Assembly: GCA_964020085.1 (NCBI GenBank)
Contig: OZ026601.1
Coordinates: 2,810,401-2,874,400, forward strand
From: Micromussa lordhowensis
Lineage: Eukaryota > Cnidaria > Anthozoa > Scleractinia > Lobophylliidae
Length of the DNA: 64,000 nt
Direction: 5' to 3'
Both the position numbers and the translations under genes were made by a program. The notes beneath the pieces were generated by a model that was not told the DNA's origin, searched no databases, and worked only from the letters and a program-made list of their open reading frames with translations. Shown one piece after another: positions 48,204 through 63,374 of this stretch. Position 1 is the stretch's first letter. Each line of letters begins with the position of its first letter.

Positions 48204-49226
48204 TTAAATACCTAGGCTAGATGAAACTGAAAGCCGTGCAGATATATCTTCTTGAATATACAAGTCTTTGGCGTAATCGGATTTCCATCGCCCGTGTAAT
48301 TTTAATAACCTGTCTGATACAGGGCCGCTAGGTGAATTTACGGCAGCGTTTGCCCCACCAGACCTAAGACTGTGTAACCCAAAAAATTTGGAGTCGTAAC
48401 CTAGAGCCTTGAGAGCTTCCAAAAAGATTTCTCGACACCTAGAATACGAAATTCCTTTGTTCCCTAAAACATAAGTATTACAATTTTTCTGAAATACTAA
48501 TTGCCTGATTAGGAGACCGTCTGCATTATGGTCCATTCTTGCAGCAGACATATACCTAAGGACCATATTAACTGGACAAGTGGCATTGTCCGTTCTAGCA
48601 ATAATAGCTTTATTACCTTCCCTGTAGACATCTGTTTTACTACTTGGTATAACAATGGACATATGGTCATCTGCGAAAGTTATATGCGAAGCTTTGATAT
48701 TTGCTAACTCATTGAATCTGAAGAAACCTGCAAAACCTAAGAGAACTATGACTGAAATTCGCAGATCTTTTAGATTAGCGTCTACCTTGCCATGTCTAGC
48801 AACTATTTTCTTGACCATATCAACAGAGAGAGGGAGCTTCCTATTCTTCCGTTGTGTGCCATTACGTTTCGCGGCTTCAACAACATTTCTACCCACTCCG
48901 GTTTTCAAAGGATTGTTACTACAAGTTACATCTACTACATCGTGTAGTACTAATGCAGCATAAGCCATACTAACAGTGCTGGGAGAACCAGTCTTCCTGT
49001 GAAGTTGAGACAAATAGCCGCTACAACAATAGGCTCTAGTAGACTATAGTGGCAAAACGAATTGAACCTAAACATCATTGTACCAACGCATAAATGTTCG
49101 ACACTCAAGTAAATATCTATTCATTGTCGAAGGTTGTCTGGCTTTAAACTGATCAGTAATGAGGCGCGGCTTGAAGGGAGCTAAAGATCCATAGAGACTT
49201 GCCCAACAGGACTGAACAGAGATGGC
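48204..49226 (-). pseudogene. Tyrosine recombinase of a DIRS-like retrotransposon, two in-frame TAG codons
   Basis: Tyrosine recombinases replace the DDE integrase in DIRS-type elements. The catalytic domain shows the conserved Arg in F-F-R-F-N-E-L, the H-x-x-R box (G-L-H-S-L-R-S-G-G), and the H/W...Y end (L-H-G-R-W-K-S-D-Y, then D-L-Y-I). The N-terminal SAM-like part (P-S-T-M-N-R-Y-L-L and M-R-W-Y-N-D-V) is in the same frame but separated from the catalytic part by TAG at 49068-49070 and 49044-49046. The frame begins after a good acceptor (TTTTGTTTTCCTCAACAG, ending about 49227), suggesting it was a spliced exon. This copy is probably inactive unless the stops are read through. Confidence 0.85.
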
Positions 49227-49330
49227 CTGTTGAGGAAAACAAAAGGAAAAACACATAACAGAGGGGTGTAAAAGTGGAACAATGTTTCTCACTGATTCAT
49301 GGCTAAACGGAAATAAGTTCTACAACCCGG

Positions 49331-49580
49331 GTGCTATTAGTTCTCAACACAACTACATTCATTAAATGAAGATCAAAAAAGGGCAATAAATAACACAGCA
49401 CTATTGGAGTGCTATTCGTTATCGACACAACTTCTGCACATTGACACATGGCCCGAAATAAATACCTCAACACTGGTAAGGTGCTATTCGTTGTCAGCAC
49501 ATCTACCTCATATATAATGATCAAAGTGAAATAAATAACGCAACACTGCCAAGGTGCTATTCGTAGTCAGCACAAATTCC
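49331..49580. repeat. Four-copy ~72-78-bp repeat between RT and recombinase
   Basis: GTGCTATTCGTTGTCAGCACA-like cores begin at 49331, 49409, 49481 and 49554; the last three are preceded by AAATAAATA(A/C)C and a short C-A-rich segment. The spacing is regular (78, 72, 73). Each core is itself partly palindromic (GTGCT...AGCAC). It lies in the interval separating the two enzyme genes of the DIRS-like element. Confidence 0.85.
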
Positions 49581-49620
49581 CCCCGCTAGATTGTGGCCGA
49601 AAGGCCAACCTGTCAGATTT

Positions 49621-51723
49621 TTATCCCGAAGGAACGAAATTCAATCTTAAAGCCACTACATATCCCGGAGTAGTTGGTGAACCCAGAATAGAATTGCGAT
49701 TTCGCCCGTGCGTCAAAGCTTGAGGCATAGACAAAACTCTTAAATCCTGAATAAAAGTGCAATAAATATTGGTTAACAGGGGCCAAAACACGGCTGACTT
49801 CCACAGTGGAACAATAAGGGTGCCCTTGGCTCCCTGACTATACATATAGGCAAGCGTTCTGGGAATAAGATAAACTGGCGGAACCAACCAGCAGTTCTCA
49901 ACTTCCCACGACTGCATGAATGCGTCAATGCCCGACGTTTCCGGGTTCCAAAATCTAGAAAAATACCACGTGATTTTTCTGTTGTAATACGTGGCAAAGC
50001 AATCCACCGTATAGGGACTCCAAAGACTATCTAAGTCTTTGAAGACGTCCTCGGTGACCTGCCAATCGTCAAAATCCACCAGTTTGCTAATAAAATCTGC
50101 CCTGGCATTGCAATCCCTAGGAACCCATTCAATATCCAAATGAATGCTGTGTTCGTAACATATCTTGAATATTTTTAAGGCAAGCGTGTGTAACTCGAGT
50201 TTCATGCTACCGACCTCAACGATTTTGGCAGTGGCCTGGTTATCGGTATACCACTTAACATGTGATGAACTTAAAATAGGAAGGCAAGACAGAAGTGAGA
50301 ATTCAATTGCACTTAATTCTCGCCACGTAGAACTTCTACTCCTTTCGTCGTGCGTCCACATTTTGCGGCAAACATGTTCGCCGTCATTGATATAAGAAAC
50401 AGCTCCGCAGGCAATATTACTAGCATCTGAAAAAGTTACTTTCTGAGGTTTGCGGAAAACAAAACAGTTTTTAAAATTGCGTAAATGGATATTTTTCTTC
50501 CAGAAAACGATTTCATCCTTACAATACTCGTCTAAAATCATAGGTGTATCCCAATGCTCAGCAATAGCAACTGTCATCTGACAGTGTCTGGTAGTAATTC
50601 TGGGTAAATTTCCAGTAACCGGACATGTAGACATAACTTTCCCGACAAATGATGACAATTGTCTAGCCGAAATTGTGCATTTTTGAGCTTCAATAAAAGC
50701 CACACAATCAACGATACCTTGGACCCTCCTGGGTGTAATACTAATAGTACCAAGAGTGGAGTTCCAGACCAATCCTAACCAAGTAATAATTTGCGTTGGT
50801 TCCCAAATTGACTTTTCGCTATTTGTTATAAATCCGGCTAAATGTATGTCAGAAGGAACCCTACTAGCTATCAAATTTGCTGAATTATAGTCGTCAGCGA
50901 TGGACCAACCATCGTCTAAAAATACCGCGATGTAAATACCGTTAGCCCTCCACCAACCAACCAAAGGGCGGAGTATCTTTGTAAAGATATAAGGAGCTAC
51001 AGAAAGGCTAAAAGGAAGAACTGTGAAAACGTAAAACCGCGTCTCCCCTTGAAACTCCCATGAAAAACCTAAGAATGTCTGATGTGGTTGGAAGATCTCG
51101 ACGTGATGATAGCCACTCTTAAGATCAAAAGAAAACATATAGCCATTCTTACGAAACATAAGAGAAGCAATTTTCCAATCATCGTACTTAATCCTCAGTT
51201 TCTTAAGGAAATGATTAACATATCTTAAATCAAGAATTAACCTTTTCTTTCCATTAGGCTGAACGGAAACCGACAATGGATTGACGACAAGGGGTTTGCA
51301 AGGCAATTGCTTTATGCGTTCGGACTCCAGTAGCTCAGTGATAGAATTCTCTACGAAGTCAATATTTTTCAGGGCAGAAGCGTTGTTCTTTGAATAATAT
51401 GCAGGCGGCACATCCCAGAAAGGCAAGGGATAACCAAATTTAATTACGTTTAATATGAAGGATGAAGCACCTAAAAATACCCAAAATTCTAATTTTTTCT
51501 TTAAATTGCCCTTTACATTGTTATTCCGTGCTAGATCTTCGTCGCTTTCAAAACGATTTAGTACCTCCGATTCCCTTAAGTCCGGTTCCTGAAGCGTTTG
51601 TGGTGGTGGAGGCTGGGGCAAAGGCGGTCGACTTGTACTGGCCGAAAGGGCGGGGGTAGAAGCTGGAGGCCCTACAATCTTTGGCCCAGTGACCTGGCCT
51701 TCCACACCTGAAGCATTCCCCAT
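49621..51723 (-). CDS. Reverse transcriptase/RNase H of a DIRS-like retrotransposon
   Basis: An intact 700-codon frame from ATG. The N-terminal 90 residues are Pro/Ser-rich linker. The RT domain (about 150-300) has R-L-I-L-D-L-R-Y-V-N, F-S-F-D-L-K-S-G-Y-H-H and the catalytic F-L-D-D-G-W. The RNase H domain (about 430-570) has T-F-S-D-A-S-N, Y-T-D-N-Q-A-T-A and W-V-P-R-D-C-N-A-R-A-D. The C-terminal region (P-Y-T-V-D-C-F-A-T, F-W-N-P-E-T-S-G-I-D-A-F) is the segment commonly following RT-RH in DIRS elements. The RT active-site Asp pair is intact, and the start overlaps the gag frame. A tyrosine recombinase lies downstream on the same strand. Confidence 0.9.
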   Translation of the reverse strand: MGNASGVEGQVTGPKIVGPPASTPALSASTSRPPLPQPPPPQTLQEPDLRESEVLNRFESDEDLARNNNVKGNLKKKLEFWVFLGASSFILNVIKFGYPLPFWDVPPAYYSKNNASALKNIDFVENSITELLESERIKQLPCKPLVVNPLSVSVQPNGKKRLILDLRYVNHFLKKLRIKYDDWKIASLMFRKNGYMFSFDLKSGYHHVEIFQPHQTFLGFSWEFQGETRFYVFTVLPFSLSVAPYIFTKILRPLVGWWRANGIYIAVFLDDGWSIADDYNSANLIASRVPSDIHLAGFITNSEKSIWEPTQIITWLGLVWNSTLGTISITPRRVQGIVDCVAFIEAQKCTISARQLSSFVGKVMSTCPVTGNLPRITTRHCQMTVAIAEHWDTPMILDEYCKDEIVFWKKNIHLRNFKNCFVFRKPQKVTFSDASNIACGAVSYINDGEHVCRKMWTHDERSRSSTWRELSAIEFSLLSCLPILSSSHVKWYTDNQATAKIVEVGSMKLELHTLALKIFKICYEHSIHLDIEWVPRDCNARADFISKLVDFDDWQVTEDVFKDLDSLWSPYTVDCFATYYNRKITWYFSRFWNPETSGIDAFMQSWEVENCWLVPPVYLIPRTLAYMYSQGAKGTLIVPLWKSAVFWPLLTNIYCTFIQDLRVLSMPQALTHGRNRNSILGSPTTPGYVVALRLNFVPSG

Positions 51724-53930: not shown

Positions 53931-55316
53931 AATAATAATAATAATAATACTTTATTTATATAGCGCTATTTCCCTTTAGCCCAATAGCGCTTTACAACAA
54001 TCGTAATTCGAAAAAAAAAAAAAAAAAAAAAAAAAAAATGCAATAATACAAATAGCATTACAGTAAAAAATATATTAAAAACTATTTAAGATGTTAAAAC
54101 TATATCGCAAAATAAAAGCTATATTACATGCTAAATTAAACTATAACATTTTTTAAAAAGATATGTTTTCATATAGGTCTTGAAACTTGATAATGAACTA
54201 CTCTGTTTGATATAGTCGGGGAGGGAGTTCCATAAAGTTGGTGCTGCAAAAGAGAAACACCTATGGCCATAACTTACTAGCTTGACGAGTGGTATTTTTA
54301 GGAGGTTTTTAGACGAAGATCTCAGATTCCTAGCTGGTGTATATGGCTTTAGTAGTTCAGTAATATAACTAGGGGCCTGGCCATTGAGCGCTTTGTAGGT
54401 CAGGAGTAGTATCTTATAGTTAATACGCTGATTAACTGGAAGCCAGTGCAGTTGCTTTAAGACAGGCTTAATGTGGTCATATTTCTTGGTGCGAGTAATA
54501 ATACGGGCTGCAGCATTCTGGACATTTTGTAAGCGATCTATTAGAAAGGTAGGTAGCCCATACAATAATGAGTTAACACTATCAAGCTTAGAGGTAATAA
54601 ATGCGTGAACCAGTTTTTCAGTGTCTGCTTGAGATAAACAGTCTCTTATCTTACTAATGTTCCTGAGGTGGAAAAAACAGGCTTTGCAGATATTGGCGAC
54701 ATGCTTATCTAGTGACATGTGCTCATCGAAGATAACTCCAATGTTCCTTGCAGATGAAGTTGGCTTGATCTGTTCACCAGACACATCGATGTATTCTATT
54801 GATGGGGGTGGACGGTGTCGTGCACTCAGGACCAATAGTTCCGTTTTTCCTCTGTTCAGTTTAAGCTTATTGCTTACCATCCATGAGTCGATTTCGGAAA
54901 CACACGCTCCTATCCTAGATATGGAGCCGGCTTGTTCAGCAGGTGTGGGCTTAAATGAGAAATATAGCTGAGTGTCGTCGGCGTAGAGGTGGTAATTGAG
55001 TCCATGCCGTCTAATTATGTTTCCGATGGGGGAAGTGTATAGCAAGTATAGGATCGGCCCTAAAACTGATCCCTGGGGGACACCATAGCGGAGTTCTTTC
55101 ACTTTTGATCTGATTCCGTCAACCGTCACAAACTGCTTCCGATCTTGGATGTAGGATTGGAACCATTTAAGCACATTTCCTTTCACACCGTAGCGTTTTG
55201 ACATTCTTTCCAGTAGCAGCTCATGGTCGACGGTATCAAATGCTGCAGACATGTCCAACAGTAGCAGGACAACGCATTTCTGATTGTCTATTTCACAGAG
55301 AACATCATTTTGCACC
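53931..55316 (-). mobile_element. 5'-truncated L2/CR1-like LINE
   Basis: The minus-strand 3' end is diagnostic: a hairpin GCGCTATTGGGC...TAGCGCTATATAAATAAAG followed by (TATT/ATT)n. The coding part occupies most of the element (see next entry). An internal A-run (plus strand) lies at 54011-54038. Flanking sequence on both sides belongs to the array spacer (AAGTGAAAA / AAAACAACTTTGAAACTGCC), so the insertion postdates array formation. Confidence 0.85.
54131..55316 (-). pseudogene. Reverse transcriptase fragment of the L2/CR1-like LINE
   Basis: The frame is open for 430 codons, but its first ~35 codons are read from array spacer DNA. LINE homology starts at about Q-N-D-V-L. RT motifs present: L-L-D-M-S-A-A-F-D-T-V-D-H, G-V-P-Q-G-S-V-L-G-P and Y-H-L-Y-A-D-D-T-Q. 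A C-terminal region follows (L-H-W-L-P-V-N-Q-R-I, then L-W-N-S-L-P). The endonuclease domain and the N-terminal RT portion are missing, so the copy cannot move itself. The intact reading frame suggests recent insertion. Confidence 0.9.
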
Positions 55317-55452
55317 TTTAAAAAACAACTTTGAAACTGAAACAACTTAGAAAACAACTTTGAAACTGCCTTTATTGCTGGAACTTCAGATAAGTGTTTT
55401 TCTATTTTTAACTTTGTTAGCAAACAAACAGTACTCGTGTCTCAAGCGATCA

Positions 55453-55521: not shown

Positions 55522-55716
55522 AGCTCATTTTGAGTTTAAAAGTGAGGGTTTTTTATGTAACTATTTTACTTTCGTTTACAATCAACAGTCGACTTTCGTC
55601 CATCTTTTTACTTAAGAAAATCACAACGTCAACCAGTTAATTAGGGCACTGAATAAGTTTGCAGACCACTTTTCTAATAGGATAAAATCTAGAGGAAAAA
55701 AGTAAAACAAAACTTA

Positions 55717-55788
55717 AGGGGGCAACCGGGATTGAACCGGTGACCTTTCGATCTGCAGTCGAATGCTCTACCACTGAGCTATGCCCCC
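55717..55788 (-). tRNA. tRNA-Cys(GCA)
   Basis: A complete 72-nt cloverleaf: acceptor GGGGGCA/TGCCCCC, D arm GCTCAGTGGTAGAGC, anticodon stem TTCGA/TCGAA, loop CTGCAGA with anticodon GCA (55754-55756), and T arm ACCGGTTCAATCCCGGT. Convergent with the tRNA-Gly about 200 bp upstream in the same unit. Confidence 0.95.
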
Positions 55789-56158
55789 TTACATGTCACA
55801 AGGCAATGAAGTTTCTATTCTTAACCTGTGAGAGTAAAGTGCAGGTGAACTGCATGTAAAGATCTTAAACTTGTCGACCTAGAACAATTTTATATTTAAG
55901 ATTCGCGCGTAGTTTTGAGGATTATTTTATAAAAGCAATAGAGTACTTTTTCCATGTTTCCATAAACCTCATCTTAACACGAGAGAGGTTGGGAGAATTC
56001 GAAACAGTTATGAGAATTCACCAAGCCTCCCGAGAGGATAACAAAATGGGGCGAGTTTTTTAAGTCAATTAAAACCAATGCAATTGTGAATTACTTCTAC
56101 ACTCTAGTGCTGCAACTTGAGATTGGTCCTCTTGTCACAAGCGAGAGGGTTCAGATAA
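55789..56158. other. Array spacer with half palindromic element
   Basis: Includes the AACCTGTGAGAGTAAAGTG block and a degenerate palindromic element (about 55900-56040: TTCGCGCGTAGTTTTGAGG, GAGTACTTTTTCCATGTTTC, GGGAGAATTCGAAAC). The equivalent spacer at about 62166-62535 is nearly identical. Confidence 0.7.
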
Positions 56159-56229
56159 GCACTGGTGGTTTAGTGGTAGAATTCTCGCCTGCCACGCGGG
56201 AGGCCCGGGTTCGATTCCCGGCCAGTGCA
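56159..56229 (+). tRNA. tRNA-Gly(GCC)
   Basis: A complete 71-nt cloverleaf, anticodon GCC; it differs from the copy at 47030 only by C to T in the D arm (GGTTTAGTGG). B box intact. Confidence 0.95.
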
Positions 56230-56424
56230 AGCTCATTTTGAGTTTAAAAGTGAGGGTTTTTTATGTAACTATTTTACTTTCGTTTACAATCAACAGTCGA
56301 CTTTCGTCCATCTTTTTACTTAAGAAAATCACAACGTCAACCAGTTAATTAGGGCACTGAATAAGTTTGCAGACCACTTTTCTAATAGGATAAAATCTAG
56401 AGGAAAAAAGTAAAACAAAACTTA

Positions 56425-56471
56425 AGGGGGCAACCGGGATTGAACCGGTGACCTTTCGATCTGCAGTCGAA
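56425..56471 (-). pseudogene. 3' half of a tRNA-Cys gene split by a LINE
   Basis: Identical to the 3' part of the intact tRNA-Cys at 55717 up to the anticodon stem (CTGCAGTCGAA on plus). The sequence then switches to the 3' end of the retrotransposon; the missing 5' part resumes at 62137. Confidence 0.95.
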
Positions 56472-56660
56472 TTTTAGCTTTTGAAATGAGTTTATTCACA
56501 ATAAACTACTAATGTACATAATAAAAAGTGCAAAGCACATGGGCCTGGCCCCTCACATAGAAATTCCGTATTAAAATAAAACCCTAGAGTATTACTTCAG
56601 CTTCACACTGTCAAATATAATGTTCAAGAATGTCTCTGTCCAACTATAAAATTGACTACA

Positions 56661-59600
56661 CTAGAGAAGAACATGAAAAGAAGAGTCGGCAACTTTACAA
56701 AGTGTAGATTCCCAGGCGGATGCAAAATCGGACTGCGACAAGCGAAAGTGATCTAAAGAAATTCTTTTCCGGATATCTGTTTTAATGTAACGAATAATAG
56801 CCTGGGAATCCTCGTGACCATTATGAAAAGTGGCTTTATTTCGGAATTTCCAAATTCCGTAAAGAGTTGTTTTAATCAGAAATCTGGCCAAGCGTGCACT
56901 CTTAGCGTCTGCACGGGGCCATTGGAAAAAGAAGACGGAAATGCAGTTAGGTAAAAATGTCACACCAAGAAGAGAAGACAAAAAAGGCGAGAAGTGTGAC
57001 CAAACGGCCTTCACGCGGGAGCAATTAAGGAAACAGTGGTCGATTGTTTCCTTTCGAGAGCACGACGCACAGCAATCGGAGTTAATGTAGCCCCAATTTT
57101 TCAAAGCATCGCGAACCTTAACCGCGCGTAATACAATTAACCAAAGTAGATCATTTTTGAAATTCTCACAAAACTCATCACGAACAAGTGACCAATGCCG
57201 ATCCAGGTCAAAACCAATAGTTAAAAACGAGACCCAATGTCGGTGAATAACGGGTGAGGATGACTTTTCCTTAAGTAGAGTGTAATAACATTTCTTTGAA
57301 GTAAAAGCAAAATTGCGCCAGTCTTGGCAAGACAAGATCTTGCGGAGACTGCTCAAAACAGAAAGGCAATTCGAATAAAAGGGTGTTAGAAGTTGAGCAC
57401 TCGGAGAGGAGTTATCCCGAAGGAAACGCCACTCCGGTCGAATTGGAGATAGCTTAGCCCCGAAAAAATACTTAATGAGATAAAAAGACTTTGAATCGGC
57501 ATTGGAGCAATTAGAAACTACGGATGCTAACTTTAAGGCATCTGCCTTGATCTTAAAATTAATGATGCCTAGACCGCCCTTTAGGAAGGGCTGATGACAC
57601 GACTGTCGGCTGACGGTCTCCATTCGGCAACCCCATAGGAAAGGCCAAATCAAATTATTTACCTCCGAAATAACCCATTGAGGGACAGGAAGAATAGTAG
57701 CTAGATACAGGAGTTTGCTAATTCCTATTGTATTCACAATCAGGGACTTGCCCACCAGGGATAAAGAACGAGATTTCCAAAAATTAAGATGATTTTCTAA
57801 CTTCTTAAGCTTTGGCCGCCAATTGTCAGACTCTGCATTCTGTCCGAAAACAACCCCTAGAATTTTCATTTTTGTTACCCATGTGAGGCCAAACGGCTGG
57901 TCAGGGCACGAGCGCCACGCGCCCAGCCACATGGCCTCTGTTTTGGATACATTGAGTTTCGCTCCGGATCCCCTCTCGTACACGTTGATTACGCGAAAGA
58001 GAGCTGCAAGAGAATAAACAGATTTGACTAGACTAGTCGTGTCATCAGCATAAATACTTACTTTATATTGAGACCCGTTAGCACCAGGTAAGAGAAAGCC
58101 TTCAATTTGGGAGCATAAACGAATTTGACATGCAAGAGTTTCAACGCAAAGAATATATAGCATTGGGGAAAGGGAATCCCCCTGGCGAACGCCGCGAGAC
58201 AAAGGGATCGGCTCTGTGAGCCATTCATTCACAATAACGCGCATATTAGCACCTTTATAAAACGTGCTAATCCAGTTACAAAAAGAGGGGCCAAAACCAA
58301 AACGAATTAGCAAACTCTGTAGAAAAGAACGGTTTACGCGATCAAAGGCTTTCTCCTGATCAAGACTTACTAAAATACCAGCTTCCCCTGTGCGGTCAAG
58401 GTAATCTAAAATATCCCTAAGAGTATGAAGATTCGCTGAAATCTTCCGCCCAGGAACAGAGCATGTTTGGTCAGGATCAACAATGAATTCCAGGACTTTA
58501 GAAAGGCGAATAGAGATAGCCTTAGAGCAGATTTTATAATCAACATTGAGAAGGGAGATCGGTCTCCAATTTTTTAGAGATTTCCGATCCTTCTTTTTAT
58601 AGATCACGCGAGTATTACTTGTTTTCATGGATTCACACATCTCACCAGCTTGAAAACAGGAGTTGAAAACAAGAACTAAATGAGGAGCTAATATATCCCA
58701 AAATTTACGATAAAATTCAACGGTTAAACCATCGGGCCCGGGAGATTTGTTCGTATTCATGTTCTTAACTGCAAAGGAAATTTCATCAATCGTCATTGTG
58801 CCCTCGCACAATGACGACTGATGAGGCGACAGCTGGCGAGAAAGTGAAGACAAAAGATCATCCTGGAAAACCATATCAACCGGTTCTTCCGAAAACAAGG
58901 AAGAATAGAAATCAAAATGTGCCTGCTCAATTTCATCTTGTGACGAAACCTCAACGCCGGATGAATTATATATCGATGATATTTTGCTTCTCTGCGCATT
59001 AGAAGAGTGCAGCTGAAAAAAATAACGAGTTGGGCGTTCGCCCTCCTCGAGCCATTCCGCTCGACTGCGGACTAAAATTCCTTCGATTTCTTTAGTGTAG
59101 ATGACCTTTAAGCGGCATTCTATATCTTGAATAGAATCAACAACGAAATTGTCACCGTTGACCAGGCGTTGACGAAGACTAATTAATTTATTCGTTAGAA
59201 AAACACGATCTCGACACAATTGCCGGCGCTTTTGGCGGGAAAACGAAATCGATTCTTCCTTGATGGAAATTTTTAAAAACTCCCACCAATCTTGAGGAGA
59301 CGGAAATGAAGCAAAATACAAAACGTGACTTTGAATTAAATTACGAATAATACCACAGAAGTTTTTGTCATCAAGGAGCGAGTTATTTAATTTCCACACG
59401 CCTGGGCCGCGTTTAGCGGCGTCAGGGATATCAAAAACAAAAGAAACAAAATTGTGATCAGATAGCGGACAAGGTGAGATTTCACATTGGCAATCAGATG
59501 TAAACAACTCCTTTGAGACAAAGAACTTGTCTAAGCGACTAGCAATTGAATAATCATGGTTGAACCAGGTGAATTCGCGCGCGCTAGGGTGTAACTTACG

Positions 59601-60164
59601 CCACGCATCAACCAAAACAAAATCAGATTTTAGAGATTTACATTCACCACCGACTGAAACATTCCCGCCAAATTTATCGAATGCATTTTCATAACAATTG
59701 AAATCGCCACCGATCACGAGAGCGGACGCAGGAACAAAGTATTCATGAAGGGATTCGTAAAACAATTTTCGATCAGTACGATTGGTGGGAGCATAAATAT
59801 TGACGAAGTTAAGATCTACACCGTCGATTCTAACCAGAATACTAATTATACGCCCATTAGAGTCCTTTTTCCAAGACACTACTTCGTCGGAGCACTTGGG
59901 AGATATTAAAACGGCAACACCTCCCTGTTTGCCAATTGAGGGGGACCAATAACTACGGCCCAGCCATCTACGGGAAAGAACTTTGATCTTTGCCTCAGAA
60001 CTAACTAAAGTTTCCTGAACGAAACAAATATCACATGCAGATTTCTCAATGAGATCAAAGAGGAGGTTATTATTAAGGGGACTCCCCAAACCCCTCGCAT
60101 TAATAGTCAAAACCTTGAAAATGTCTTGGAAAAAGGACTCGAAAAACTGGGAAAAAAGGTAAAA
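56661..60164 (-). CDS. ORF2: AP endonuclease-reverse transcriptase of the Tx1/L1-like LINE
   Basis: It nicks target DNA and primes cDNA synthesis. The frame is open from 60164 to 56661 (about 1,167 codons) but has no ATG before the endonuclease domain; the first plausible alternatives are non-AUG (TTG at 60110). Residue numbers below count from that TTG. Endonuclease (about 1-230): N-A-R-G-L, F-V-Q-E-T, I-Y-A-P-T-N, G-G-D-F-N-C, S-D-H-N-F. RT (about 480-760): N-K-S-P-G-P-D-G-L, W-R-P-I-S-L-L-N-V-D-Y-K, L-D-Q-E-K-A-F-D-R-V, G-V-R-Q-G-D-S-L-S-P, Y-A-D-D (687-690, DNA 58041-58052). C-terminus: W-G-Y-I followed by C-x2-C...H-C-F-L-N-C, an RT-associated zinc-binding segment. All catalytic motifs look intact, suggesting a potentially active copy. 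Confidence 0.92.
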   Translation of the reverse strand, partial: FYLFSQFFESFFQDIFKVLTINARGLGSPLNNNLLFDLIEKSACDICFVQETLVSSEAKIKVLSRRWLGRSYWSPSIGKQGGVAVLISPKCSDEVVSWKKDSNGRIISILVRIDGVDLNFVNIYAPTNRTDRKLFYESLHEYFVPASALVIGGDFNCYENAFDKFGGNVSVGGECKSLKSDFVLVDAWRKLHPSAREFTWFNHDYSIASRLDKFFVSKELFTSDCQCEISPCPLSDHNFVSFVFDIPDAAKRGPGVWKLNNSLLDDKNFCGIIRNLIQSHVLYFASFPSPQDWWEFLKISIKEESISFSRQKRRQLCRDRVFLTNKLISLRQRLVNGDNFVVDSIQDIECRLKVIYTKEIEGILVRSRAEWLEEGERPTRYFFQLHSSNAQRSKISSIYNSSGVEVSSQDEIEQAHFDFYSSLFSEEPVDMVFQDDLLSSLSRQLSPHQSSLCEGTMTIDEISFAVKNMNTNKSPGPDGLTVEFYRKFWDILAPHLVLVFNSCFQAGEMCESMKTSNTRVIYKKKDRKSLKNWRPISLLNVDYKICSKAISIRLSKVLEFIVDPDQTCSVPGRKISANLHTLRDILDYLDRTGEAGILVSLDQEKAFDRVNRSFLQSLLIRFGFGPSFCNWISTFYKGANMRVIVNEWLTEPIPLSRGVRQGDSLSPMLYILCVETLACQIRLCSQIEGFLLPGANGSQYKVSIYADDTTSLVKSVYSLAALFRVINVYERGSGAKLNVSKTEAMWLGAWRSCPDQPFGLTWVTKMKILGVVFGQNAESDNWRPKLKKLENHLNFWKSRSLSLVGKSLIVNTIGISKLLYLATILPVPQWVISEVNNLIWPFLWGCRMETVSRQSCHQPFLKGGLGIINFKIKADALKLASVVSNCSNADSKSFYLIKYFFGAKLSPIRPEWRFLRDNSSPSAQLLTPFYSNCLSVLSSLRKILSCQDWRNFAFTSKKCYYTLLKEKSSSPVIHRHWVSFLTIGFDLDRHWSLVRDEFCENFKNDLLWLIVLRAVKVRDALKNWGYINSDCCASCSRKETIDHCFLNCSRVKAVWSHFSPFLSSLLGVTFLPNCISVFFFQWPRADAKSARLARFLIKTTLYGIWKFRNKATFHNGHEDSQAIIRYIKTDIRKRISLDHFRLSQSDFASAWESTLCKVADSSFHVLL

Positions 60165-60168
60165 CTAT

Positions 60169-61959
60169 CTACTTCCTGCCTTTTTTCTTCTCCCGCCTCT
60201 CCTTGGGGGGAGCGTCGGCCTGGGCTTGAGCCTTGCGTTTTAGGTCTACCGTAGTCTCCATGGGCGTAGAAGAGGCAGCGGGAGTCTGCGACTCTCCAGA
60301 GACAAAAGGGTGATTCTTCTTGCGGAGGGCGGCTGCTTCTAGAGCTGTAGGAGCCACAGCGAAGGTACGGCGGGTAAGTCTAGGAACACGGACGGGAACC
60401 CGGCTTTTACTAGCTGAAGAATGAAGCGCACTTGAAGGATCAGATGGTTGACTTAGGTCATCAATTACTACGACTGGGGGCTTTATGAAGCCCTGGGAAT
60501 CTAGTACTCCATCAGGCTGATGGTCGGCCGGGGAGACCTGGTTTTCGGCAGTCTGATTTGGCTGGGCATCAGGCAAAGATTCTGTAGGCAGTACAGCAGC
60601 TAATACATCGGTGCCATGGTCGGCCAGGGAGGCCTGGTTCTCGGCAGTTTGATTTGGTTGGGCATCAGGCAGAGATTCTGTAGGCAGTACAGCAGCTAAT
60701 ACAGACGGCCCAACAGCTGTCGACTCAGCGGTCGATGGTTCAGTGGCAGCTGGCTCATTTTCAGATGGCTCAAAGAAGGACGGATCAGCGGGCAACGTAC
60801 TCACGGGCAAAGCCGTAGCAAGAGGTTGCGCCTCGGCATCTCTAAAATCATCATCCTCTTCACCCTCATCGGAAAGGTCCGAATCATCGGCCCATTTAAA
60901 TGAGTCTCCCGAGCGGGTCTTGAAGGAGGCCTCACTATCTTCCCCATCGGAACGATCCACATTAACAGGGGTTGACTCATCTGTTGTGGTACCCCTGATT
61001 AATGACGAAACCCAAGAATAACCGCATTCGCGGCTAGTATGGCCAGCTTCTTTGCAAAAATGGCATAAAGGTGGCGCCGGACACGAACCAGCCTCATGCC
61101 CGATGTTTTCGCAATTAAAACAAACCTTCAGGTTGCAATCATTACTAAAATGACCAGCGAGGTTACAGCGCCGACAGGTTGGTACCTGGCCGTCATGCTT
61201 CAAAAAAATCTGGTATTTACCAAACCGGATAAAACTTGGAACAGGCTTTGTTACCCTCACGCGGTAATGACGTAGGCCATTGTAGACTCCTGGCATAAAA
61301 TCGAATTTGCCCCGACGATAATGTACAACCTCGCAAAAGGGAGCAAGCCGCCTGATAATGGCCAAATCGCTCAGTTCAAATGGAGCGTCGTATATTGTCA
61401 AAAAGGTCATAGGGCGATCAATGTCTTGCGTCGCGTAGCTGTACTCTCCAACGGTGAGAGCGTTTAAACGAAGAAATTTTTCCTTAACATCCACTGACTT
61501 GAAAGTAATTACAACCTCACTGTTCATCTTTCGTTGCATGCACTGAATATCCGATGCGTCAATATGTGCCATACTCAAGGCTTCAAAGACAGATCTCGCT
61601 GATGTGGAACGTGATGGCGTAAATAAAGCTGTTCTGGGGCGTTTTGGCATATCATTAGCCGCGGAATGAGTAGGACGCCGCCAGGTTGGTTTATCAGAAG
61701 AAACACGACCAGCCGTTCTGGCCGCTCTCGAGGCATAGGAATCTGCATTTACATACGATCGAAGTTCATTCGGACCATCAGCAAATTGTGAAGCCCCATT
61801 ATCGTCAGTGGAAGTCGTGTTTACATCATTAACACTCTCAAGACTCTCTCCAGGGACATTATCCACAGCACCATCAGTACCCTCCGGGACAGTTTTGGCG
61901 CCAACAGAACTTTCCATATTCAAATTCGTAACGACTTCACTTTCAACAGAACTTTCCAT
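60169..61959 (-). CDS. ORF1: CCHC zinc-knuckle RNA-binding protein of the LINE
   Basis: A 596-aa protein from ATG, expected to bind element RNA. The N-terminal ~130 residues are Ser/Thr/acidic and disordered-looking. Residues ~130-255 form a folded region (R-R-L-A-P-F-C-E-V, R-F-G-K-Y-Q-I-F) resembling the RNA-recognition-like segment of gag-type ORF1 proteins. Three tandem knuckles, each C-x2-C-x4-H-x4-C, lie at residues 262-275, 280-293 and 299-312 (DNA 61176-61135, 61122-61081, 61065-61024). The C-terminal half is acidic then Pro/Ala-rich, with an exact-length 32-residue tandem duplication (DNA 60702-60607 and 60606-60511), and ends in a Lys/Arg-rich tail (K-E-R-R-E-K-K-K-G-R-K), possibly nuclear localisation. 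The stop is followed one base later by a stop in the ORF2 frame. Confidence 0.9.
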   Translation of the reverse strand: MESSVESEVVTNLNMESSVGAKTVPEGTDGAVDNVPGESLESVNDVNTTSTDDNGASQFADGPNELRSYVNADSYASRAARTAGRVSSDKPTWRRPTHSAANDMPKRPRTALFTPSRSTSARSVFEALSMAHIDASDIQCMQRKMNSEVVITFKSVDVKEKFLRLNALTVGEYSYATQDIDRPMTFLTIYDAPFELSDLAIIRRLAPFCEVVHYRRGKFDFMPGVYNGLRHYRVRVTKPVPSFIRFGKYQIFLKHDGQVPTCRRCNLAGHFSNDCNLKVCFNCENIGHEAGSCPAPPLCHFCKEAGHTSRECGYSWVSSLIRGTTTDESTPVNVDRSDGEDSEASFKTRSGDSFKWADDSDLSDEGEEDDDFRDAEAQPLATALPVSTLPADPSFFEPSENEPAATEPSTAESTAVGPSVLAAVLPTESLPDAQPNQTAENQASLADHGTDVLAAVLPTESLPDAQPNQTAENQVSPADHQPDGVLDSQGFIKPPVVVIDDLSQPSDPSSALHSSASKSRVPVRVPRLTRRTFAVAPTALEAAALRKKNHPFVSGESQTPAASSTPMETTVDLKRKAQAQADAPPKERREKKKGRK

Positions 61960-62136
61960 TATCCAAACTTCGAAATTAAACGGCTACGAAGAAGCGATGC
62001 CACTTATAATCTCGAAGCAAAAAGTGGCCAAAAGGCCTGTTACAATCTAACAAAACCAGGAAACCAGAGAACAAACCTCAAAGGCGCTAACGGGAAAAAC
62101 GGATCGCGGTGTCGACTGAAGGATTAACTCAAGGCA

Positions 62137-62165
62137 CGAATGCTCTACCACTGAGCTATGCCCCC
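62137..62165 (-). pseudogene. 5' half of the LINE-split tRNA-Cys gene
   Basis: Acceptor 5' strand, D arm and the first bases of the anticodon stem (GAGCATTCG on minus), identical to the intact gene. With 56425-56471, and counting the duplicated CGAA once, it reconstructs the whole 72-nt gene. Confidence 0.95.
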
Positions 62166-62535
62166 TTACATGTCACAAGGCAATGAAGTTTCTATTCTTA
62201 ACCTGTGAGAGTAAAGTGCAGGTGAACTGCATGTAAAGATCTTAAACTTGTCGACCTAGAACAATTTTATATTTAAGATTCGCGCGTAGTTTTGAGGATT
62301 ATTTTATAAAAGCAATAGAGTACTTTTTCCATGTTTCCATAAACCTCATCTTAACACGAGAGAGGTTGGGAGAATTCGAAACAGTTATGAGAATTCACCA
62401 AGCCTCCCGAGAGGATAACAAAACGGGGCGAGTTTTTTAAGTCAATTAAAACCAATGCAATTGTGAATTACTTCTACACTCTAGTGCTGCAACTTGAGAT
62501 TGGTCCTCTTGTCACAAGCGAGAGGGTTCAGATAA
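62166..62535. other. Array spacer
   Basis: Nearly identical to 55789-56158, including the half palindromic element at about 62276-62418. This shows that the two flanking units were recently duplicated before or around the LINE insertion. Confidence 0.75.
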
Positions 62536-62573: not shown

Positions 62574-62768
62574 CTCATTTTGAGTTTAAATGTGAGGGTT
62601 TTTTTTATGTAACTATTTTACTTTCGTTTACAATCAACAGTCTTTCGTCCATCTTTTTAGTTAATAAAATCACAACGTCAACCAGTTACTGATTAGGGCA
62701 CTGAATAAGTTTGCAGACCACTTTTCTAATAGGATAAAATCTGGAGGAAAAAAGTAAAACAAAACTTA

Positions 62769-62840
62769 AGGGGGCAACCGGGATTGAACCGGTGACCTCT
62801 CGATCTGCAGTCGAATGCTCTACCACTGAGCTATGCCCCC
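62769..62840 (-). tRNA. tRNA-Cys(GCA)
   Basis: A complete 72-nt cloverleaf differing from the copy at 55717 by one base in the anticodon stem (T-A to T-G pair at 27-43). Acceptor, A and B boxes intact. Confidence 0.94.
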
Positions 62841-63374
62841 TTACATGTAACAGGGTAATGAAGTTTCTATTCTTAACCTGTGAGAGTAAAGTGCAGGTGA
62901 ATTGCAGGTGAAGGTCTGAGACCTGCTGACCTAGAACAATTTTATATTTAAGGTTCGCGCGTATTTTTGAGAAATACTTTATGAAAGTAAAGCTCGCTTG
63001 CTTTTCTACCCACCACTGTTTTTTAAGCGTTTTAGGTCTCGTAAACGTAGACGCTTTTTTGTTCGTCAATGGGGTGGTAATGAGATCATCTGTTCCCTTA
63101 GGGGTTCGAGTCTAATTTTCCATCTGTGATGTTTGTTGCTCCGAAGTATTTTTTTCATTCTCCGGCTGCAGGTTCTTTTTATTGCCTCAGTTGTTTACTC
63201 TTTGTGACTGCTTAATCGATCTTGTTGATCTGAGAATGTAAATTACTTTGACTCTCAAGTGAAAACATTTTTGGAACTGCCTTTGTTGCTGCAACTTCAA
63301 AAAAGTCTTTTTCTATTTTTAACTTTGTTAGCAAACCAACAGTGCTCGTGTCTCAAGCGATTGAACTCAGATAA
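62841..63374. other. Array spacer with unrelated insert
   Basis: It begins with the shared spacer (AACCTGTGAGAGTAAAGTG, TTCGCGCGTATTTTTGAGAA). It departs after 62990 into sequence not shared with other units (about 62990-63235), then rejoins the shared block GTAAATTACTTTGACTCTCA before the next tRNA-Gly. Confidence 0.6.

Follow-up and report, generated by a model that had tools for sequence, protein, structure and literature searches.

Among the described systems closest to the element analysed here, Keno is a long interspersed nuclear element (LINE) of the Tx1 clade with two open reading frames (ORFs), Dewa of zebrafish belongs to the Tx1 group, and NeSL-1_TV, LIN15_SM and LIN25_SM are members of a NeSL-related group with a restriction-like endonuclease. 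The element in question is a 5,665-bp LINE that splits a transfer RNA (tRNA) gene for cysteine in the genome of Micromussa lordhowensis. It lies in a stretch of 64,000 nucleotides (contig OZ026601.1, positions 2,810,401 to 2,874,400), which as a whole is called the window and whose numbering is used below. We consider it highly probable that the element belongs to a young, Keno-related family of two-ORF LINEs, which prefers one point in tRNA genes, mainly those for tRNA-Lys and rarely those for tRNA-Cys, and whose RNA starts inside the donor tRNA.

Like Keno, the family uses an apurinic/apyrimidinic (APE)-type endonuclease, and relatives of it occupy Keno's site in the U2 small nuclear RNA (snRNA) in the same genome. 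Unlike Keno, the window family hits tRNA genes directly before nucleotide T27 and leaves a duplication of 4 to about 9 bp, whereas the U2 relatives lose bases. Dewa inserts in the tRNA-Leu spacer (PMC3706591, in excerpt). It is likewise a site-specific LINE tied to tRNA genes, but the window family inserts inside the tRNA-coding sequence, with 32 of 77 copies within Lys or Cys genes, and its insertions are not of the Dewa type. NeSL-1_TV, LIN15_SM and LIN25_SM are described as LINEs specific for tRNA-Pro, -Arg and -Glu (PMC4640811, in excerpt). They share the restriction to tRNA genes, whereas the window element is of the APE type and its target is common to three tRNA kinds. In Dictyostelium, the LINEs TRE5-A and TRE3-A are likewise directed to tRNA genes, but they insert outside the gene, TRE5 at 40-54 bp upstream by way of contacts with TFIIIB and TRE3 at 40-150 bp downstream (PMC5911963, in excerpt), and the window family at one point inside it. 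Dada-tK elements have tRNA-Lys genes as their target as well, but are DNA transposons with unrelated proteins (PMC8869645, in excerpt). Among the papers listed by the literature searches, which did not include Repbase, none was seen to describe an APE-type LINE within tRNA-Lys or tRNA-Cys, so that a described family may exist.

The LINE copy occupies positions 56472-62136 of the window, and 20 fetched copies were aligned to it (L009-L028; L-numbers denote fetched stretches or copies, and C-numbers contigs of the window's own assembly, G000). Its sense strand is the minus strand, on which all features of the locus given here lie. The copy separates nucleotides 1-29 of a tRNA-Cys gene (62137-62165, nucleotide 1 at 62165) from the 3' part of this gene, which begins with T27 (56426-56471, 3' end at 56426), within a Gly/Cys tRNA array. 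The target-site duplication TTCG (CGAA on the plus strand) is found at 56468-56471 downstream and at 62137-62140 upstream of the element; it can also be counted as 5 bp, one A being common to the target and the terminal A's of the element. When the flanks were joined with the 4-bp duplication collapsed, they aligned without gaps to the neighbouring array unit over 727 columns (score 718 at +1/-2), and keeping the duplication introduced a 4-base gap. The 300-nt flanks 56165-56464 and 62137-62436 match the neighbouring unit at every position. Intact tRNA-Cys genes are present nearby at 55716-55789, which represents an empty site, and at 62768-62841. The ORFs and the joined-flank alignment confirm what the earlier note had claimed from the letters of the window, a two-ORF LINE of 5,665 bp splitting tRNA-Cys with a 4-bp duplication. 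The split at 56471/62137 was placed correctly, and the 3' end of the tRNA, given there as 56425, was one base off.

Further copies were collected from the window's own assembly (580.8 Mb, 1,383 contigs). A similarity search with the element 3' end gave at least 40 matches (40 of 88 candidates scored). The exact 16-mer of the 3' end was counted in full and occurs at 77 places (reversed control, 1), a census that takes in exact 3' ends and places changed or missing ones outside it. The 3' flanks of all 77 copies were sorted by script, allowing up to eight differences. In 32 of the 77 the insertion point lies directly before T27, in the anticodon stem of a tRNA gene, and all 32 copies are in tRNA sense, as is characteristic of a site-specific LINE. 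Twenty of these are in tRNA-Lys-CTT, ten in tRNA-Lys-TTT and two in tRNA-Cys (the window copy and L026), so that the hits extend over three tRNA kinds and five contigs (C2, C3, C6, C7, C12). ARAGORN, run on six Lys sites with the flanks joined, reported tRNA-Lys in every case, three ctt and three ttt. Between two and five terminal A's precede T27 in the 32 copies; since A26 of the tRNA is also an A and merges with them, the nick may be one base earlier. Two clusters, at C2:44.2-45.2 Mb and at C6:37.7-37.9 Mb, contain most Lys-site copies, and a number of the flanks there are near identical. A U2 flank of the Keno kind was not present among the family's 77 3' flanks.

The other 45 copies lie elsewhere and form 30 groups by common flank, some being duplicates of each other. 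L105 is directly 5' of a tRNA-Cys and L083 directly 5' of a gene read as tRNA-Gly, L037 is followed directly by another copy, and in L009 one 3' end lies about 20 nt ahead of the tagged 5' end of the next copy. The idea of a site-specific LINE in a tRNA array is borne out by the 32 copies at one tRNA point. The earlier note had gone further and proposed a lineage specific for tRNA-Cys, to be examined by a flank census; this census returned 30 tRNA-Lys, 2 tRNA-Cys and 45 other flanks, which identifies a tRNA-Lys family with rare Cys hits. A preference for the anticodon stem of tRNA genes, centred on Lys, therefore replaces Cys specificity. Copies scattered at unrelated sites, with the window copy as the only tRNA insertion, had been named as the contrary outcome: scattered copies do exist (45 of 77), but 31 copies besides the window copy share its tRNA point.

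The target genes tRNA-Lys-CTT, tRNA-Lys-TTT and tRNA-Cys have a 16-mer in common, GGTAGAGCA followed by TNNGACT, with the insertion point between the two parts. The motif GGTAGAGCATNNGACT, also common to Lys-CTT, Lys-TTT and Cys, occurs at 308 places in the assembly (reversed controls, 2). Of these, 185 are Lys-type sites, some of them being 5' junctions that belong to inserted copies, and 49 are Cys-type sites. The other sites seen among the roughly 100 places listed are mostly of a CC type, GGTAGAGCATCCGACT. At all five places read, the GGTAGAGCATCCGACT sites belong to tRNA-Ser-like units, and these form head-to-head pairs in the three loci covering both sides. None of the 32 tRNA insertions is held by a GGTAGAGCATCCGACT site, so the motif is not sufficient, and the motif alone was rejected as the determinant of target choice. 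The tRNA-Ser-like units were seen on several contigs (L139-L143; G000:C1, C2, C3, C4) and resemble a mobile element whose inverted ends are tRNA-like.

The 5' junctions bear on the origin of the element RNA. A search with the element 5' end yielded at least 41 matches, including a partial one (40 of 61 candidates scored). The 5' flanks were read at 40 places, 39 plus the window, with the partial match left out. The flank is a tRNA-Lys 5' half at 20 of the 40: 19 passed the automatic cut, and L019, which failed it by a single mismatch at nucleotide 2, was moved to this group by hand. In 13 of the 40, a piece of tRNA-Lys, here called a tag, stands ahead of the element though the 5' flank is not a Lys gene. 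The tagged copy L026 has a Cys gene on its 3' side and a Lys-CTT tag at its 5' end; 3' flanks were seen for the tagged copies other than L020, L041 and L046. One 5' end (L037) is preceded by the 3' end of another copy in tandem. The window copy (1 of 40) has a 5' end of its own, a private 27-nt stretch (62110-62136), which replaces the family 5' end TTGAACGGACGTGTTTGAAGAGCT. No other of the 41 element 5'-end matches reached 62110-62136, none of the fetched copies L009-L028 (n = 20) aligned past 62109, and a 24-mer from the stretch occurs at a single place in the assembly, which gives no support to a templated origin. The 5' ends of both Cys insertions, the window copy and L026, are aberrant.

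The 13 tags start at tRNA-Lys nucleotides 13, 14, 15, 15, 15, 16, 16, 17, 18, 19, 21, 26 and 28, where one or two bases may match by chance, and none starts before 13. L010 and L018 have a common 5' flank, which leaves 12 roughly independent starts; under a uniform start over nucleotides 1-28, the absence of any start before 13 among these has P of about 0.001. A genome-wide pattern of the tRNA motif running into the element was found at 33 places (control, 0). Four of them were new to the set of junctions: a near duplicate of L045 (L133), two Lys sites (L131, L132) and L130. At L130 (G000:C2:7107380-7107530) a piece of the element 5' end lies directly before a tRNA-Lys-TTT leader, followed by the whole 5' half and then by another copy. 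At L037/L039 (G000:C1168) a copy seems to be inserted at the tRNA target which an older copy outside a tRNA gene carries as its tag. This arrangement suggests that a tag can become a new target.

A second trace of the donor is nucleotide 28, which separates Lys-CTT from Lys-TTT (G or C). Among the 23 Lys-type 5' halves that were read, pairing by position with a Lys 3' flank succeeded for 17, and six without a clear pair (L012, L016, L019, L022, L038, L130) were left out. The 5' junction carried the nucleotide of the wrong isoacceptor, compared to the copy's own 3' half, in 8 of the 17 paired Lys-site copies. Cluster tallies were computed by script from the motif-site listing. In the CTT cluster (C2:44.49-45.18 Mb), a foreign C was present at 3 of 12 element junctions versus 0 of 46 other sites (Fisher 0.007), and in the TTT cluster on C6, as far as it was listed, a foreign G was present at 3 of 5 versus 0 of 18 (Fisher 0.006). 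The foreign nucleotide 28, together with the tags, indicates that the template RNA includes the donor tRNA from about nucleotide 14 on. In this way the donor tags point to an RNA start from DNA alone.

The protein domains are consistent with insertion by target-primed reverse transcription. At the position observed, the endonuclease would nick the bottom strand at the A26/T27 bond or at the bond one base before it, within GGTAGAGCA plus TNNGACT. The element RNA would start inside the donor tRNA at about nucleotides 14-15 and carry the D-loop of the donor together with its half of the anticodon stem. If the target is a Lys gene, the end of the complementary DNA copying the tRNA piece would pair with the target's own 5' half and yield a clean junction; at a non-homologous site the tRNA piece remains as a tag. 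A likely benefit would be that multicopy tRNA arrays offer a landing place where one lost gene costs little.

The sequence around the presumed start also allows a tentative reading as a promoter. The tRNA A box reads TCAGTC, and its A is nucleotide 14. The first bases of the element contain CGGACGT, with GGACGTG at +27 from A14, and the element's first nucleotides supply CGGACGTG, an exact match from +26 to a motif like the downstream core promoter element (DPE). The canonical DPE position is +28; the motif of the element is one base short of this, and the match was made post hoc. In Drosophila promoters, TCAGTY is an initiator and CGGACGT a DPE-like motif (PMC9302807, PMC1779564, both in excerpt). 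Possibly, though we hold it to be rather doubtful, the target tRNA would complete the promoter of the element, with the A-box TCA(+1)GTC acting as an RNA polymerase II (Pol II) initiator and the DPE-like motif coming from the element. If so, only copies in the right tRNA would rebuild a working promoter. Target specificity, RNA start and self-renewal would then be one feature, an RNA polymerase III A box would have been turned into a Pol II start site, and the need of the elements to keep returning to the target would be explained. The window copy has a 5' end without CGGACGT, and its Cys site has a shorter D-loop, so that few further copies may arise from it.

Other explanations of the insertion pattern were weighed against these data. 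A lineage that is specific for tRNA-Cys and persists in the Cys array as a safe harbour would fit the window copy and L026, both in tRNA-Cys at the expected point, and L105 directly 5' of a tRNA-Cys. We give this idea next to no credence: 2 of the 77 3' ends are in Cys genes as opposed to 30 in Lys genes, the 49 exact Cys motif sites compare to 185 of Lys type (which include the 5' junctions of inserted copies), and both Cys copies have abnormal 5' junctions, the tag of L026 being Lys-CTT. Cys-only specificity was rejected on the census of 77 3' flanks. It is also very improbable that the element has no sequence specificity and that a few early insertions were amplified by unequal exchange or duplication of array units. 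Such amplification would account for the concentration of most Lys-site copies in two clusters and for their partly near-identical flanks. The same point is, however, hit in three tRNA kinds on five contigs, with differing 3' spacers, numbers of terminal A's and 5' nucleotides, and four relatives are equally precise in U2.

Two further alternatives concern the tags. They might never have been transcribed, but captured from DNA outside Lys genes, or they might be what is left of a decayed former tRNA gene. L130, with a tRNA-Lys leader and 5' half beside a copy whose nearby 3' flank is not tRNA, would suit this view, which we regard as improbable. All 13 tags outside Lys genes start at nucleotide 13 or later and read straight into the element, a decayed tRNA gene should retain traces of nucleotides 1-12, and this view does not account for a foreign nucleotide 28 in Lys genes that are otherwise pure. 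A longer read-through RNA, for example from the tRNA start or upstream of it, which a nuclease or ribozyme cuts back to tRNA nucleotide 14-15, is a more serious competitor, although we still judge it the weaker option. R2 provides a precedent with a 5' self-cleaving ribozyme on a 28S co-transcript (PMC3414825, in excerpt), and a sharp 5' limit would result from processing as readily as from initiation. On the other side, Rfam found no ribozyme in the 5' region of L015, where just an unrelated small nucleolar RNA appeared at E 6.4; in a search of six sources at gathering thresholds, tRNAs alone matched.

We prefer a young LINE with a Lys-centred target and an RNA that starts inside the donor tRNA. 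Several points weigh against it. With 45 of 77 copies off the tRNA point, the specificity is a strong preference and not absolute. Five of the 40 5' ends are free of a tag (L014, L021, L034, L035, L036), and L130 has a whole tRNA-Lys 5' half but a nearby 3' end (L055) outside any tRNA. Later gene conversion could be a partial source of the wrong-isoacceptor nucleotide, and array duplication may have multiplied copies within a cluster. As to age, the copies L009-L028 (n = 20) are about 96-99.8% identical to the window copy over the main aligned pieces, and 27 (two of them partial) of 31 family ORF2s among the 40 best-scoring places are free of stops, these 31 being the best-scoring ones and as such favouring intact copies. 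High identity and open frames suggest that the family is young and probably still active. The reading as a whole is built on DNA sequence.

The two proteins of the window copy are in keeping with a place among the L1/Tx1 LINEs. ORF1 (60169-61959) encodes a zinc-knuckle protein of 596 aa, in which Pfam recognizes zf-CCHC (9.6e-07, whole protein). ORF1 proteins of the Tx1 clade carry CCHC zinc knuckles, and the window ORF1 agrees with this. ORF2 (56661-60110; 1149 aa counted from TTG) combines an APE-type endonuclease, a reverse transcriptase and a zf-RVT domain according to Pfam (Exo_endo_phos 2.4e-13, RVT_1 2.4e-35, zf-RVT 1.3e-08) and structure matches. Among solved structures it is closest to L1 ORF2 proteins (E 3.9e-90), and R2 follows at 4.4e-19, as expected for an L1/Tx1 protein. 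No restriction-like endonuclease domain was present among the Pfam matches and the N-terminus is an APE-type endonuclease, unlike in NeSL/R2-like elements. The label Tx1/L1-like, given to the element at the outset, is supported indirectly by these structures and by the relatives at the Keno U2 site. The ORFs are bordered by a shared 5' untranslated region (61960-62109) and by a 3' untranslated region (56472-56660) terminating in CATTTCAAAAGCTAAAA. Between 60110 and 60171 there is no in-frame ATG ahead of the conserved N-terminus of ORF2 (TINARGL). The frame of ORF2 opens within a few bases of the ORF1 stop, an arrangement that suggests translation of ORF2 from a non-AUG codon or by reinitiation. 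When five related ORF2 starts were compared, a methionine was present at the N-terminus solely in L135.

Relatives were sought with ORF2 among about 5.8 billion proteins, which gave at least 1,475 matches (8,000 candidates scored), 120 of them listed and none of these named. Some relatives (P0003-P0018) have an ORF2 identity of 66-85%. Within the own genome, a search with P0021 as query revealed further families, of which ten copies were read. In four of these (L110, L112, L114, L116) the 3' flank resumes inside U2 snRNA (Rfam U2, E 1e-25 to 4e-25). By our count on the U2 sequence, the point of resumption is nucleotide 39. Their 5' sides comprise the U2 5' end up to about nucleotide 21-31, so that by the same count roughly 7-17 U2 bases are lost. 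Nucleotide 39 is the start of the 3' flank for Utopia of Phytophthora, and Utopia 3' flanks are identical to those of Keno (PMC4640811, in excerpt); the four copies are thus inserted as Keno is. The ORF2s of the U2 copies (L134, L135, L136, L138) are 56-68% identical to that of the window. Rfam reported 5S ribosomal RNA genes beside the interrupted U2 in three stretches (L111, L115, L117), which represent a mixed U2/5S array. The other six copies (L118-L128) share repeated flanks of another kind, which may represent a further target or off-target copies that were duplicated, and the ORF2 of L137 is 68% identical to that of the window.

A quick ORF2 tree was calculated from 45 rows, namely the window, five own-genome rows and 39 of the 120 listed matches, with no named Tx1 reference. 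A clade of 22 rows (support 100) includes the window's group and, as its sister (support 91), the group with the U2 families L135 and L136. The U2 families L134 and L138 belong to a separate group of 13 rows (support 100). The root was set by midpoint, and the root forks are weak (23). The position of the U2 relatives in two separate groups suggests a target switch from U2 to tRNA. If U2 were the older target, one switch to tRNA would explain the tree, in which the targets assigned are those of own-genome rows. There appears to be target switching within one genome, between the Keno site in U2 and the tRNA anticodon stem, at the same precision. The residues by which an APE-type endonuclease chooses its target can therefore be compared among relatives whose ORF2s are 56-68% identical. 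In IMG/VR, 174 stretches fit a pattern for relatives and none was confirmed.

Two other regions of the window carry long frames. Adjoining the tRNA array, 54131-55423 contains a 430-aa frame that by eye resembles the reverse transcriptase of another LINE. At 48204-51723 there are two long minus-strand frames, which by eye resemble a tyrosine recombinase and a reverse transcriptase/RNase H and are perhaps part of a DIRS-like element.

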